A stretch of 64,000 bases of DNA. Source: Syntrophorhabdus sp. PtaU1.Bin058. Its GTDB lineage: Bacteria; Desulfobacterota; Syntrophorhabdia; Syntrophorhabdales; Syntrophorhabdaceae. The first letter of the stretch is position 1, and the number at the start of each line of letters is the position of its first letter. The notes beneath the pieces were generated by a model. It was not told where the DNA came from. It did no database searches and saw nothing but the letters and a program-made list of their open reading frames with translations. Shown here piece by piece: positions 8,024-60,791 of this stretch. A program made the position numbers and the translations under genes. The stretch spans positions 1 through 64,000 of the forward strand of contig MVRS01000242.1 in NCBI GenBank assembly GCA_002067975.1, written 5' to 3'.

Positions 8024-8030
8024 ATTAAGC

Positions 8031-8114
8031 TATCAGCCGTCAGCTATCAGCTTTCAGCAAAAAAGACCTCAATACACATTAGCTGATAGCTGTAAGCTGA
8101 TAGCTGTAAGCTTT
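8031..8114 (+). repeat. Inverted pair of heptad arrays eno-larA
   Basis: Four heptamers (TATCAGC, CGTCAGC and variants) occupy 8031-8058. Five in the opposite orientation (TAGCTGA, TAGCTGT, AAGCTGA and variants) occupy 8080-8114. The arms are complementary and can form a long hairpin. The second arm ends on the base before the ATG of the next gene, so no ribosome binding site remains there. Confidence 0.9.
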
Positions 8115-11401: not shown

Positions 11402-13489
11402 TCATTTATATATCATGTCCCTATCCCTGTCAAGGAATATCTTGAGGTTCCGTCCGATAAAATCAAACAAAGGATTATAATGGTTTATGTCCTGCGCAGC
11501 ATCCCTTGTCCAAGGAGAAACAGCATAGTTGAAGTTCGTCTTTGAGTCCCTGCCGCTTAACAGCCTGAAGGGTATCACAAGGGCAATACCTTTATCATGG
11601 TAGCCCCTGTTGTAACTATCGCGAAAGCCCGACGTGTCTGTCACGCTGTACCATGCAGTAAGGATTACGCCGTTGATGAACTTGGAGACGCTGAACCGCG
11701 ACCCGAAATCACCCCCCAGAAACCTTCCGGTCTTTGCATCGAATGCGAGGTCATATTCGGGCACATTGAGGCGCACATTCGCAAAGGAGGTATAATAGGT
11801 TCTCCTGTCATCGTCCTTAAACGCGAAGACCGAATCGGGGTCCCTTTTCTTCGCCAGCGTCCCGCCCAACCCAACAATAAACCTGCCATTTTTCAAAGGC
11901 TTAGCGATCTCACCGTCAAACCCTCCATACTCGATCTCCAGGAATCCTGCCGAAAATCTTCCGTAGACCTCATTGTTTGTCTTGTAGACCTGGTTAAACA
12001 GGAGTCTCGGCAGGGCGAACCGTTTCCTTTGATAATCAATGATATCGCTTCTAACGGCATCCGGTGACGGCTCATTCACCGTTGAAATATTGTTGAGGAG
12101 ATAGACCCCGGGGCCCACCACGAAGGAACCGCCCCCCCAGGGTCGATAACTTACCAACGCCTCAGCGCCGAACCGGTATTTAAAAAACCCCGACGGGTCA
12201 TTGAGGAATGTCTGCAGAGATGGTTTGATAGTATAATCAAAGGGTTTTTTATGCTCGATGGGTACATCCGGCGCCCTGCCTATTGCCGTATCGATCTTGG
12301 ATAGGTAAAAAAACTGGTTCGCCGTCAGTTTATCCCTGTAAAATTCTGCAATATCTGATTTAGTCGTATCGAGTTCAAAGATCGGTATTCCATTATCGGT
12401 AAGGGTAATATGGATATTCTGGATCTGGTTCGGGACAATCTCATTGACGATCTTTGTAATGGCCCCTATCGCCCTGGTGCTGTAATAGTATTTATCATTC
12501 TGCGCCCTTATCCACAGGTCGTTCCTGTCGATCAATATCCCTATACTGCTGAAGCCCGATCTATTCAGCGCCATTGTCAACCGTTTGTTTACCGGGGCTG
12601 ACTTGTCCTCCTGCCTTTCTCTGTATGCCGGGTCATAGATGGGAATGATGGGCTGGCCTATGTCAAAATCCATCGAAAGGTTTATCCCGAACTCCTCTCC
12701 CCTTTGATAACTCACATCCACCTCCGCAAACCTGAAAGGCTTCCAGCGGAGACCGTAATTATATTGGGAAGGCACTGGGTCCTGAAAGTATTTTGCCTGT
12801 GCAGGGTCCCGCGTCTGTTCGTGGTACTTAATGGGGCTGTACTCAACCATCAGTGCATAGTGATCGGAGATGGCCCACTGGATACCCCCGAAGAATTGCG
12901 AATCCTTTAACCAGCTCCTGGGGTTACTGAAAAGCTCGATCTGGAACCCTTCTCCCTGAGACGGCAATTGGGTCTTTCCGAACCTCCCATTGCCGAAACC
13001 AAGTGTAAAATCAAATGGATAGAGCTGTTTGCTTGCAATGATGGATTGTGACGGGTAGACCCTCGTACCGTGGGGGTCCATGATGCTCAGCGCAATAGCA
13101 GGGGCAACCTTGTCTTCCTTTACGAACTGGTACTTGAATCCGAAATATTTATCCTTTTGGTTCCCATATCCGCTCCAGTAAGGGTTTCCCGGGCTCGCCT
13201 TCACTCCGATGATCTCCGTTACCCTCCCGTCAATCTCAATCCCTTTAAGCGGGCTGAATGCAACATAGTAGTATCGATAAGGGTGTATCTGGCTCGCCCC
13301 CATACGGTAATGGTTTTCCCTCATGACCCTTGCCGTGGGTACCTCCATGATGCCCGTAAAACCCTGATTCGAGGGATAGGTAAAGGGCTCGTTATCAGCA
13401 TAAAGATCGGCGGGGAGCGGGGAGCGGAGAGCGGAGAGCAACAACAAGAACAAAAAAATCAAACGGGACTTATGGAGAACGTTCTGCAC
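11402..13489 (-). CDS. yjbH: YjbH-domain outer-membrane exopolysaccharide protein
   Basis: A 695-residue YjbH/GfcD-type protein, a predicted outer-membrane beta-barrel linked to exopolysaccharide or group 4 capsule secretion. The N-terminal block (YPSNQGFTGIMEVPTARVM) is the family's hallmark opening. Many alternating amphipathic strands and aromatic residues follow, and the end KIFLDRDRDMIYK is typical. The signal peptide is unusual: between its hydrophobic core and the mature start lies SALRSPLPADLYAD, encoded by heptad repeats (13410-13444). Start GTG 13489 is the only in-frame choice. It lies between the Wza-like and YjbE-like genes. Confidence 0.9.
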   Translation of the reverse strand: MQNVLHKSRLIFLFLLLLSALRSPLPADLYADNEPFTYPSNQGFTGIMEVPTARVMRENHYRMGASQIHPYRYYYVAFSPLKGIEIDGRVTEIIGVKASPGNPYWSGYGNQKDKYFGFKYQFVKEDKVAPAIALSIMDPHGTRVYPSQSIIASKQLYPFDFTLGFGNGRFGKTQLPSQGEGFQIELFSNPRSWLKDSQFFGGIQWAISDHYALMVEYSPIKYHEQTRDPAQAKYFQDPVPSQYNYGLRWKPFRFAEVDVSYQRGEEFGINLSMDFDIGQPIIPIYDPAYRERQEDKSAPVNKRLTMALNRSGFSSIGILIDRNDLWIRAQNDKYYYSTRAIGAITKIVNEIVPNQIQNIHITLTDNGIPIFELDTTKSDIAEFYRDKLTANQFFYLSKIDTAIGRAPDVPIEHKKPFDYTIKPSLQTFLNDPSGFFKYRFGAEALVSYRPWGGGSFVVGPGVYLLNNISTVNEPSPDAVRSDIIDYQRKRFALPRLLFNQVYKTNNEVYGRFSAGFLEIEYGGFDGEIAKPLKNGRFIVGLGGTLAKKRDPDSVFAFKDDDRRTYYTSFANVRLNVPEYDLAFDAKTGRFLGGDFGSRFSVSKFINGVILTAWYSVTDTSGFRDSYNRGYHDKGIALVIPFRLLSGRDSKTNFNYAVSPWTRDAAQDINHYNPLFDFIGRNLKIFLDRDRDMIYK
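13410..13444 (-). repeat. Heptad array in the yjbH signal peptide
   Basis: Two GCGGGGA and two GCGGAGA heptamers, then GCAACAA, run at exact seven-base spacing (written on the plus strand). They encode the C-region of the YjbH signal peptide. Confidence 0.85.
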
Positions 13490-23770: not shown

Positions 23771-24188
23771 TCAGTCCGTAAAGATCGTATATCGTATGTC
23801 GACCGTAAGTCGTAAGGCGTGAGTCGTGAGGGGATTACTACCGCAAACAAATCGTGGATCGTAGTTCTCGTATCGATATTTCCCGAAAGAAGGTTCTGCG
23901 TGATGCGTTCGGCGAAGAGGCTCTTCCAGTCATGAGGACATCGGTGTCGGGCTTTCCCCGCAAACACGTGGAATAAAGGCAGTTAATAGTGAACGGTGAA
24001 AGCCTTGTCCCTCGTTGCTTGTCACTGGTTTGAACAAGTATCCAGCGACGAGCATCCGGCATCTGGTCTATTTAGTCTTTTCGTCTTAACCTTGAACGTT
24101 GAACAGATTTTTTGTCCCCTCACGATTTACGCCTAACGCCTTACGGGTTTATGCTTCTCGCTATCTACTATTCACTATCGACTATTCA
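23771..24188. repeat. Gene-free region filled with heptad arrays
   Basis: Seven in-phase heptamers occupy 23783-23831 (GATCGTA, TATCGTA, CGTAAGT, CGTGAGT and variants). 24010-24065 holds the CCTCGTT/GCATCCG vocabulary, 24084-24104 the TCTTAAC/GTTGAAC one, 24118-24145 the CCTCACG/CCTTACG one and 24161-24188 the CTATCTA/CTATTCA one. The last array overlaps the recO stop. No gene is seen. The stretch 24004-24107 is related to 35005-35126. Confidence 0.85.
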
Positions 24189-29572: not shown

Positions 29573-30292
29573 TTATCTTTCCACTATCTCCTTGCCCTTT
29601 TCCGGCCTGTATATGAATCGCGCATCGTCGACGCCGCGGTTTATCTTCACCGCTGAAAATTCTATCGTATTGACGTTGCCGGTGAATTCACGGATCTCGA
29701 TCTTCTGCACGATATTCTGTTTATCGATCCATATCTCTGCCGAGTTCACCCCGCTGTCCTTCTTCGGCACGATCTCCAGGATCTCAAGATCGCCGGCGAT
29801 AACATGCTGCTTCAGCGTGAACAGCTCGTCGATCCTTGCAATATCGTCGATGAGGTCAAGGAACGTGCCTGTCGTCTTCTCCTTCCTGATCCTCTCTTTT
29901 ACGACAAAGGACTTTTCGTCTTCTCCCTGCCACATATATTTTCCGTCATAGAGGAAGAACTTCACTTTCGGCGTCCTGTACTTCCACAAGAACCCTTTAT
30001 TCCGTTTGTAGAAAAAATCCCCCTCGAACGTCCTTTCCTTCTTTAGACCCGCGATAAATATCTTCTGATGAAAGACCGCCTCCAGTGAGTTCACCCCGGA
30101 GTATGTCTTCTTCAGGGCATCGAAGGGAGATGATACGGCAGTTCGGAGTTCGGAGTTCGGAGTTCGGAGTTCTGAAGCATAAAGAGAGCCGGCGGAAACC
30201 TGAATAAGCATAACCACAATAAGTGCAATAATCCTGATGCCAACCTTAAAAGAAATAGCGGTCTTTCTCCGAACTCTGGGCTCCGAACTCAT
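29573..30292 (-). CDS. lolA: Outer-membrane lipoprotein carrier LolA-like
   Basis: A periplasmic carrier that takes lipoproteins from LolCDE to the outer membrane. After a signal segment (GIRIIALIVVMLIQVSAGSLYA) the mature part shows the LolA pattern: LEAVFHQKIFIAGLKKERTFEGDFFYKRNKGFLWKY (abridged motif F-x-Q and G-x-F/W-Y), then KKDSGVNSAEIWIDKQN. The first 15 residues (MSSEPRVRRK…) and residues around SELRTPNSELRT after the signal are encoded by heptad repeats and are not family features. ATG 30292 overlaps the ftsK stop (TAATG). Confidence 0.85.
   Translation of the reverse strand: MSSEPRVRRKTAISFKVGIRIIALIVVMLIQVSAGSLYASELRTPNSELRTAVSSPFDALKKTYSGVNSLEAVFHQKIFIAGLKKERTFEGDFFYKRNKGFLWKYRTPKVKFFLYDGKYMWQGEDEKSFVVKERIRKEKTTGTFLDLIDDIARIDELFTLKQHVIAGDLEILEIVPKKDSGVNSAEIWIDKQNIVQKIEIREFTGNVNTIEFSAVKINRGVDDARFIYRPEKGKEIVER
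30141..30175 (-). repeat. Heptad array inside lolA
   Basis: Four exact GTTCGGA units and a final GTTCTGA (plus strand) at 30141-30175. They encode a seven-residue protein repeat beginning SELRT just after the predicted signal cleavage site. Confidence 0.92.
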
Positions 30293-34893: not shown

Positions 34894-35194
34894 AGGTGCG
34901 TACCCATTATAGCATGGAAACAGTCCTATATAAATCCTGAAATACTATTTCTGGGGCTTACGTCGCCCCTTTTAAACCAGCTAACAGCCGTCAGCATACA
35001 GCACCTTGTCCCTCGTTACTCGTTGCTTGTCACTGGTTTGAACCAGCATCCAGTATCGAGCATCAAGTATCTGGTTCATTTCGTCTATCCGGTCTGTTTG
35101 GTCTTAACGTTGAACGTTGAACATAGAACATTGAACAAATTTCCCCTTAGCTTGCCTGTGGGAATCTATTAGAACATTATTAGGCCCGCCGAGG
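34894..35194. repeat. Divergent gap with a long in-phase heptad array
   Basis: CTAACAG, CCGTCAG, CATACAG occupy 34981-35001. From 35011 to 35136 there are eighteen heptamers in one constant phase, passing from CCTCGTT through GCATCCA/GTATCGA to TCTTAAC/GTTGAAC/ATAGAAC. About 120 bases (35005-35126) are related to 24004-24107. No gene is seen. Confidence 0.88.
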
Positions 35195-47690: not shown

Positions 47691-47965
47691 TCGTAAGTCG
47701 TGAGGCGTAAGGGGAAACTGCAGCAGAGAGCCGAGAGCAAAGAGCTATGGTTTTATTATATCGTCATTGCGAGCCCACAGGGCGTGGCAATCTCATTCAA
47801 TGATTATATCCTGTTTCGCTCCTTGCGATGACGATAAAGAATGAAGCTCCTCACTATGGCTCACGGATGTCACGCTATTCTCCATGCTCTTTGCACTACG
47901 CTTTAATCCACTCACGACTTACGACTCACGACTTACGGGCTTATCTCTTTACGCCTTACCAGTAT
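47691..47965. repeat. Composite repeat with heptads and GTCATTGCGAGC core
   Basis: Gene-free. Eight heptamers in phase at 47691-47746 (TCGTAAG, TCGTGAG, GAGAGCC, AAGAGCT and variants) lead into an inverted-repeat core at 47762-47833. A CTCACGA/CTTACGA array at 47911-47938 follows. The order matches 49621-49960. Confidence 0.88.
47762..47833. repeat. GTCATTGCGAGC-type palindromic element, copy 1
   Basis: CGTCATTGCGAGC at 47762-47774 and GCTCCTTGCGATGACG ending at 47833 form imperfect terminal inverted repeats around about 45 bases. This word is a widespread bacterial dispersed repeat. Confidence 0.85.
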
Positions 47966-49581: not shown

Positions 49582-50119
49582 TACTTCATAGTAAACCGGA
49601 TACTGGATGCTGGCTGAGACCTCGTAAGGCGCAAGGGGAAACTGCGGCAGAGAGCCAAGAGTTAAGGACTAAGGGTTTTTATTATACTGTCATTGCGAGC
49701 GGAGCGCGGCAATCTCATTAATAGCTTTATACCCTTTGAGATCGCCGCGTCGCTTACGCTCCTCGCGATGACAATAAAGAATGAAGCTCCTCACGATGAC
49801 AACGGAATGAAGAACCTCACTCTTTCCGGTTTTACTCTTCTGCTCTCAGCTCTTTGCTGTAGTTTCCCCTTACGACTTCCGCCTTACGGGTTTATCTCCT
49901 CACGACTTCCGCCTTACGACGTACGGGTTTATCTCCTTACGCCTCACGACTTACGGGTTTATGTTTCCGCTATCTACTATTCACTATCGACTATCGACTG
50001 CCTTTTTACTATCGACCGCCTTGATACTATCGACTGCCTGGAGTTGTCCCTATATCCGGGCTATAATTTTCCAGCAAGAGTATTGATTGTAGGTGCCGTA
50101 TATGGTAATGTTCATCTAA
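49582..50119. repeat. Gene-free region with nested inverted repeats and heptads
   Basis: Left arm (about 49623-49661) has CGTAAGG, GGGGAAACTGC and GAGAGCC words. Right arm (about 49838-49890) is its approximate inverted copy. Between them is the GTCATTGCGAGC core (49688-49773). From 49868 to 50040 follow CCTTACG/CTCACGA and CTATCTA/CTATTCA/CTATCGA arrays. No gene is supported. Confidence 0.85.
49688..49773. repeat. GTCATTGCGAGC-type palindromic element, copy 2
   Basis: TGTCATTGCGAG (49688-49699) pairs with CTCGCGATGACA (49762-49773) at 11 of 12 positions. The inner AGCGCGGCAATCTCA and GAGATCGCCGCG bases are also partly complementary. Confidence 0.9.
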
Positions 50120-52590: not shown

Positions 52591-52593
52591 AAT

Positions 52594-52628
52594 CAGTCGT
52601 CAGTCGTCAGCAGTCAGTCGTCAGCAGT
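52594..52628 (+). repeat. Heptad array hom-apgM
   Basis: Five heptamers alternating CAGTCGT and CAGCAGT in exact phase. Confidence 0.92.
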
Positions 52629-52681
52629 CAAAGGCCCTCGCCGCCGTACACCCTTTGCTACCTTAATGAGGCCCATCGCAA

Positions 52682-60376: not shown

Positions 60377-60547
60377 GCGGAGGGCGGAGAGCACGGAGCG
60401 GAGAGTGAAAAGCGAAAAGAATAATATAGGTCTTATATGACCTATTGGACCTATATTATTTTATAGCCCGTTCTCGGGCCGGGTACCCACGAAGTGGGTG
60501 CGGGAGGCTCCGGCAGCTTTGCTGCTGGAGGGGGCGACGTGAGCCCC
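60377..60547. repeat. Heptad plus hairpin module, copy 1
   Basis: Heptamers in phase from 60377 (GCGGAGG, GCGGAGA, GCACGGA, GTGAAAA and variants) lead to a 12-bp perfect inverted repeat (60421-60432 with 60448-60459) that competes with a shorter one (60426-60432 with 60439-60445). Then come hairpin 1 (60466-60479), hairpin 2 (60483-60501), hairpin 3 (60508-60530, ten pairs, loop TTT) and hairpin 4 (60531-60547). Strand of any RNA is unknown. Confidence 0.85.
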
Positions 60548-60550
60548 AGG

Positions 60551-60675
60551 CAGCAGAGAGCATGGAGCGGAGAGCAGAGAGTGGAAAACGAAGAACAGAA
60601 TATTTTATAGCCCGTTCTCGGGCGAGAGGGGGAGGCTCCACGAGCTTTGCTTGTGGAGGGGGCGACGTGAGCCCC
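60551..60675. repeat. Heptad plus hairpin module, copy 2
   Basis: A second heptad array (GAGAGCA, TGGAGCG, GAGAGTG, GAAAACG and variants, to about 60600) is followed by hairpin 1 (60610-60623), identical to copy 1, hairpin 3 (60636-60658) and hairpin 4 (60659-60675, identical). Hairpin 2 is missing. In hairpin 3 three adjacent pairs differ from copy 1 but pairing is kept. Confidence 0.88.
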
Positions 60676-60740: not shown

Positions 60741-60750
60741 AAGTGACGAG

Positions 60751-60778
60751 GGTTGGTGTGTGCCAACCTTATTTTTAT
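60751..60778 (+). terminator. Terminator-like hairpin in the hpf leader
   Basis: GGTTGG (60751-60756) pairs with CCAACC (60763-60768) around TGTGTG, followed by TTATTTTTAT. It lies 14 bases before the hpf start and only a few bases after the predicted transcript start, so it may end read-through from rpoN or act as an attenuator. Confidence 0.6.
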
Positions 60779-60791
60779 AAGCGGAGGACTT

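Follow-up and report, generated by a model that had tools for sequence, protein, structure and literature searches.

Two tandem hairpin modules between rpoN and hpf of a Syntrophorhabdus genome belong to a family of small interspersed structured repeats

The two tandem hairpin modules between rpoN and hpf in Syntrophorhabdus sp. PtaU1.Bin058 are two of about 59 genome copies of a structured-repeat family. With a probability of roughly 0.7, we consider them copies of a non-autonomous small interspersed repeat of the BOX/ERIC/REP-like kind that acts as a transcribed leader where it has landed. The features of this repeat class, many dispersed, non-coding and structured copies that are polymorphic between relatives, were found for the family.

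The window, that is the whole 64,000 nt stretch of contig MVRS01000242.1 analysed here, was read between the rpoN stop codon (60376) and the hpf start (60792), which bracket the two modules. Tandem modules sharing an identical 23-base stretch and differing by three adjacent compensatory pairs had been proposed in the original prediction, and they were confirmed where it had placed them. The 23-mer TATTTTATAGCCCGTTCTCGGGC is present at 60457–60479 and, with no mismatch, at 60601–60623. It ends with the hairpin HP1 (GCCCG-TTCT-CGGGC), located at 60466–60479 in unit 1 and at 60610–60623 in unit 2. HP3 is a stem of ten pairs closed by a TTT loop in each unit, CTCCGGCAGC-TTT-GCTGCTGGAG at 60508–60530 and CTCCACGAGC-TTT-GCTTGTGGAG at 60636–60658, and its pairs 5–7 read G-T, G-C and C-G in unit 1 and A-T, C-G and G-T in unit 2, with the pairing kept; the sequence and the covariation alignment both place it, as they do HP1 of unit 1. 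Directly adjoining HP3, HP4 (GGGGC-GACGTGA-GCCCC) is the same in both modules (60531–60547 and 60659–60675). The extra hairpin reported for copy 1 was also seen; this HP2 (ACCCAC-GAA-GTGGGT, 60485–60499) is an optional insert between HP1 and HP3, in other copies alternatively CCCGC..GCGGG, and where it is missing, as in unit 2, the linker GAGAGGGGGAGG is found instead (60624–60635). GAGAGC-type heptads were seen 5′ of each module as described, as a degenerate 7-bp array of GGAGAGC type before unit 1 (60377–60419) and within the inter-unit spacer (60548–60600). All of these features were assigned to the + strand. An AT-rich palindrome AATAATATAGGTCTTATATGACCTATTGGACCTATATTATT at 60420–60460 in copy 1, to which no strand is assigned and which also precedes some other copies in the genus, was missing from the earlier list of parts. 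The window holds a third copy on the − strand at 34953–34969, identified by both the covariance model described below and the sequence, which is 5′-truncated to HP4 only (aaaaGGGGCGACGTAAGCCCCagaaatag).

Folding of the + strand gave −128.7 kcal/mol (z −6.1 against shuffles), and folding of the − strand gave −100.5 kcal/mol (z −4.8). A covariance model of 74 positions, R1, was built from 28 distinct cores of the own genome without HP2, and the check by such a model that had been suggested with the prediction returned more copies as well as significant covariation in the larger alignment. R1 detected the full core unit at 60602–60675 with 101 bits (E 1.3e-20; this copy is itself among the model's sequences) and the core unit with HP2 at 60458–60547 with 66 bits (E 6e-13), both on the + strand. 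Among the 28 cores, standard pairs made up 94.8% of the pair cells, compared to 83.9% in shuffles, and cells changed on both sides numbered 58, compared to 16 expected from shuffles. The covariation score was 0.336 versus 0.145 for shuffled alignments, none of 500 shuffles scored as high, and sliding controls were far lower. These figures are inflated by the relatedness of the sequences, yet HP3, which is 99.6% paired in the same cores, shows four pair types at one position. HP3 and HP1 are thus strongly covarying. HP4 and the GGAG of HP3 were both part of the search pattern for outside copies, so that the invariance of HP4 there is no evidence and the covariation of both is assessable inside this genus only. 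Nested extra hairpins occasionally occur inside the HP3 and HP4 loops.

The 105 copies mostly taken from other genomes were then used to assign the structured strand. HP3 contained 40 G-U but 4 A-C cells, and the two middle pairs of HP1 were either Watson-Crick pairs in several combinations or tandem G-A pairs (52 and 51 cells), which are stable only on the + strand. Similarly, among 67 distinct HP3 stems, G-U occurred in 42 and A-C in 3, a count that favours G-U by the exclusion of stems with more than one non-standard pair. Because G-U lies far above A-C and tandem G-A pairs are present, the structured strand is the + strand, which is the mRNA-sense strand. That the element is structured, as had been suggested, is therefore borne out by the folding, the covariation and the evidence for one structured strand; it may act as RNA or as single-stranded DNA.

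Within the own genome, called 94% complete, a DNA search returned 66 matches, and R1 detected 59 copies at 39 places. The core order is HP1, then the linker GAGAGGGGGAGG or HP2, then HP3 and HP4, and the unit has a length of about 75–90 nt including a conserved AA-rich tail 3′ of HP4, NN(T/C)AA(T)(A)G and frequently TAATAG; because of this tail sequence, a stop codon lies within 12 nt after HP4 in 155 of 183 copies. Copies also occur as tandem arrays, and in the mixed arrays that were read the HP2-bearing units tend to lead, with a GAGAGG-linker unit usually closing the array, as on contig C112, where four HP2 units are followed by one short unit. Numerous copies in this genome are located no more than a few hundred bases from the ends of contigs, namely C112, C105, C119, C171, C8, C83 and C212; the family is therefore a probable cause of assembly breaks, and more than 59 copies probably exist. 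As to the heptads, which the prediction had counted as a part of each module, a GAGAGC-type array does precede both window modules, but it is not intrinsic to the unit: only 16 of the 53 copies in this genome have one at their 5′ side, and 5 of the 100 from elsewhere. Like HP2 and the AT-rich palindrome, the heptads are an optional module that is largely restricted to this genus.

The window contains dozens of short, degenerate tandem arrays with a period of 7 or 14 bp and differing units. Their heptad units include AGCGGAG, AGCTGTA, CGTAAGT, AGTTCGG, ACTCACG and TCAGTCG, and sites include 873–896, 8028–8112, 13410–13439, 23804–23831, 30140–30172, 35106–35137, 47722–47745, 49864–50039 and 52593–52630, among others; different heptad arrays are also found in the rpoN-hpf gap of sister genomes. 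Separately, a larger composite repeat with ends of ~25–30 bp (GCATCGGTGTCGGGCTTTCCCG ... CGGGGAAAGCCCGACACCGATGC) encloses one HP1–HP4 unit at three sites of this genome (C203:12841, C223:8378 and C258:74311) and, with diverged ends, at the tatA-like gene of the congener G004 (L283).

The element had also been called mobile or duplicated, and this agrees with the many other copies and with the filled and empty orthologous sites in congeners. In the rpoN-hpf gap, G004 carries a single full unit flanked as in this genome, G002 and G006 contain heptads without a unit, and G001 has no unit in the part not read as N; one unit in the sister species and two here indicate either a tandem duplication or a second insertion at the site. 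Between the two genes at C240:37558, the site is empty in G001 and G004 and holds one unit in G006; in G002 and G005 just the 3′ end GTGAGCCCCGAAAATAG is left. Upstream of purF, G003 is empty, G001 has an internally deleted unit, G004 and G005 carry other repeats, and the present genome (G000) has two units and ends its unit 6 nt before the ATG, HP4 having replaced the Shine-Dalgarno (SD) sequence of G003, G004 and G005. Upstream of a tatA-like gene, G002, G005 and G006 are empty, G001 has an HP4-only copy, and in G000 a full unit separates a promoter-like pair (TTGACT/TATTGT) from the SD. None of these four sites, where the ends are blurred by heptads, showed a clean target-site duplication. 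Copies have thus been gained and lost within the genus.

The 5′-truncated copies with a shared 3′ end, in the window at 34953 and at the tatA-like site of G001, together with the RNA-like structure of the sense strand, would suit a retroelement-like spread, in which reverse transcription of the RNA yields copies with a constant 3′ end. Such truncations are equally explicable as deletions, however, possibly including the 3′ remnant that G002 and G005 carry at C240:37558; moreover, no RVT_1 gene was found in this genome or in five of its six congeners, and we consider this route extremely improbable.

The orientation and position of the copies relative to genes were also determined, with gene starts assigned by simple ORF rules. 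Within tandem gene pairs, copies from other genomes ran along the genes in 32 cases and against them in 6 (p = 2e-5). Across 178 distinct contexts, a symmetric test asked which end of the copy has the start of an ORF of at least 120 codons no more than 100 nt away; it was solely the 3′ end in 75 contexts and solely the 5′ end in 24 (p = 3e-7). When the ATG lay 14–44 nt after HP4, an SD-like 4-mer was present in the spacer in 36 of 47 copies, compared to a base rate of 38% for the first ATGs of long ORFs at the same loci, which is rough since first ATGs are often not true starts; when the ATG lay 5–13 nt after HP4, the spacer held an SD in 1 of 22 copies. The downstream genes that were read are unrelated and comprise a tRNA, tatA-like, purF, pdxA-like and xseA-like genes and transporter subunits. 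Copies therefore sit sense-oriented just before the start codons of many unrelated genes.

The sense-strand structure and the place before start codons argue for a transcribed-leader role, as judged from sequence. Copies between a promoter and a start codon, or between the genes of an operon, would be transcribed as mRNA leader, and their hairpins may shield or process the message. The GGAG/GAGG closing HP3, with HP4 next to the AUG, would act as an SD bridged by a hairpin, so that the downstream gene would still be translated, and such tolerated translation would account for the bias in orientation and position. Against this reading, the orientation bias could reflect an insertion preference instead of tolerance, and the GGAG is paired within HP3, so that its use as an SD would need HP3 to open. 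A bolder version, which we hold rather unlikely, is a portable mobile 5′ leader that would insert sense at start codons and bring its own translation-initiation module, the GGAG/GAGG being brought to the AUG by the adjacent HP4 and controlled by the opening of HP3. The sense orientation, the short distance to start codons and the conserved structure would equally befit a trans-acting regulatory RNA motif or a riboswitch-like leader of a defined gene set including hpf, but the downstream genes read are unrelated, copies are missing in some sister species at the sites read, and no Rfam family matched, which makes this explanation very improbable.

As for the copy near hpf, the element does lie upstream of this gene as originally noted, HP4 of unit 2 ending 116 nt before the hpf ATG. 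An hpf-specific element or regulation was rejected, the unit being missing from the rpoN-hpf gap in three of the four other congeners read. Between the element and hpf lies a promoter-like stretch AATTGGATTGACA, led by TTGACA and followed ~17 nt on by TAnnnT; the TTGACA-led stretch is kept in most family members and was not scored by a strict promoter scan. Given the 116 nt and the intervening promoter-like stretch, the window copy is too far from hpf to be its ribosome-binding leader, and it most likely sits as a passenger in the 3′ region of rpoN. A TATAAT-like promoter within the 3′ tail was also considered for the element and rejected, there being no −35 at the right distance. A + strand scan for intrinsic terminators (a G+C hairpin with a T run) returned only 60749–60770, outside the element. 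At 60751–60791, a GGTTGG-N6-CCAACC hairpin followed by ATTTTTAT immediately precedes the hpf SD and is conserved among most family members; by its sequence, it resembles a terminator-like or attenuator-like hpf leader.

Candidate mobilisers and the structure of the ends bear on a further alternative, in which the hairpins would be of the REP/BIME type: as single-stranded DNA they would be under selection and be mobilised by a RAYT or an IS200-like Y1 transposase, with RNA playing no part. The family indeed shares with REP/REPIN-RAYT systems (PMC2817692) its palindromic nature, small hairpins in tens to hundreds of copies and compensatory changes; its structure is strand-specific, tandem sheared G-A pairs are stable in DNA too, a Y1_Tnp gene was found in 22 of 25 element-bearing genomes, and some HP1 copies in this genus carry a GTAG head like that of REPs (PMC2817692). 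However, every RAYT gene is described as lying between two inverted REPs (PMC2817692), whereas an element copy was present in the fetched flank of only 2 of 32 Y1 loci and the units are tandem rather than inverted pairs. In addition, three element-bearing genomes have no Y1_Tnp, including G009 (called 99% complete and with at least 19 copies), and 98 of 100 copies outside this genome lack a GT(A/G)G head, which only 2 carry. We consider this alternative unlikely. Both the Y1 transposase and a reverse transcriptase were rejected as partners for want of a link to the element loci, and no transposase or reverse transcriptase that consistently accompanies the family was found. An all-against-all comparison of the ORFs at element loci yielded no dedicated companion gene, its clusters consisting of widespread protein types or of duplicate retrievals of one locus. 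Nor were terminal inverted repeats found, the complementarity between the sequences before HP1 and after HP4 being no better than with shuffled partners (1.93 vs 1.97), and a closing stem joining the two element ends was rejected on the same values. One locus of this genome on contig C196 (L032, 1436–2345) holds an intact Y1 transposase ORF of 291 aa flanked by inverted GGGGTCAGGTCTTGTTTCTTGCA, and a degenerate copy of the hairpin unit lies ~530 bp upstream of this ORF.

The family is spread through the Syntrophorhabdales and, patchily, other phyla. Of 119 relatives, 41 gave a DNA match, among them all six congeners and most family members, and in an even sampling of the phylum 7 of 247 genomes did so, six of them being this genome or family members. 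Of 118 genomes from the phylum to which a Nitrospirae MAG belongs, 3 matched, one of which has at least 41 copies. Among the matches listed, the exact HP4 pattern GGAGGGGGCGACGYRAGCCCC was present in Nitrospirae, Deltaproteobacteria, Syntrophus, Syntrophobacterales, Syntrophorhabdales and Troglogloeales MAGs, and singly in Acidobacteria and Bdellovibrionales MAGs, whose taxon labels, as for any MAG, are possibly wrong for single contigs. Most of the Syntrophorhabdaceae-type family members examined have the HP1-HP3-HP4 unit, whose occurrence in Nitrospirota and a few further MAGs is patchy, and no copy was found in the plasmid, phage and viral contig collections searched. With the whole window, Rfam returned 0 matches at the gathering threshold and, relaxed, a best below-threshold match at the element with E 1.4; in the non-subscription literature text, the core sequence was found in one unrelated human paper only. 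Within Rfam and this literature, the family is apparently undescribed.

Comparison with known families points to BOX of Streptococcus pneumoniae (PMC3049150), which is likewise small and modular, has optional or repeated inner modules and strong RNA folding, and includes co-transcribed copies next to unrelated genes; BOX, however, is bounded by terminal inverted repeats, shows target duplications and is enriched between convergent genes, whereas the present family, found in several phyla, has no evident inverted ends and stands sense before start codons. ERIC/IRU and YPAL of enterobacteria (PMC2229807) are also structured, polymorphic between related genomes and co-transcribed with genes, and the orientation of ERIC decides its effect on mRNA stability (PMC2229807), but no shared sequence or terminal inverted repeat was found, and three or four separate hairpins stand here in place of one long stem. 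The heptad arrays are of the general type of intergenic 7-bp repeats such as TAACTGA of Beggiatoaceae and cyanobacteria, many of which lie just upstream of start codons in Beggiatoaceae (PMC4679880), and the heptanucleotide elements of Geobacter metallireducens (PMC2700814), but those described here do not form part of the hairpin unit, have many different unit sequences and are usually absent from copies elsewhere. The Geobacter class 4 repeat (pentanucleotide CCYTC) was judged no match by its description (PMC2700814). The family thus resembles small interspersed repeats such as BOX and ERIC and lacks the features that define REP/RAYT and inverted-end elements.

Small bacterial repeats are usually confined to one genus or family. 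The present family is common to several phyla, patchily, and, whereas the pneumococcal BOX and RUP are found preferentially behind genes (PMC3049150), it stands sense before start codons, sometimes at the expected ribosome-binding site. If it is a transcribed leader, each insertion would alter the translation of a gene at a stroke, and the filled and empty species pairs at purF, the tatA-like gene and the C240 gene pair are ready natural experiments. If the portable leader were true, the translation of unrelated genes would have been rewired across phyla.
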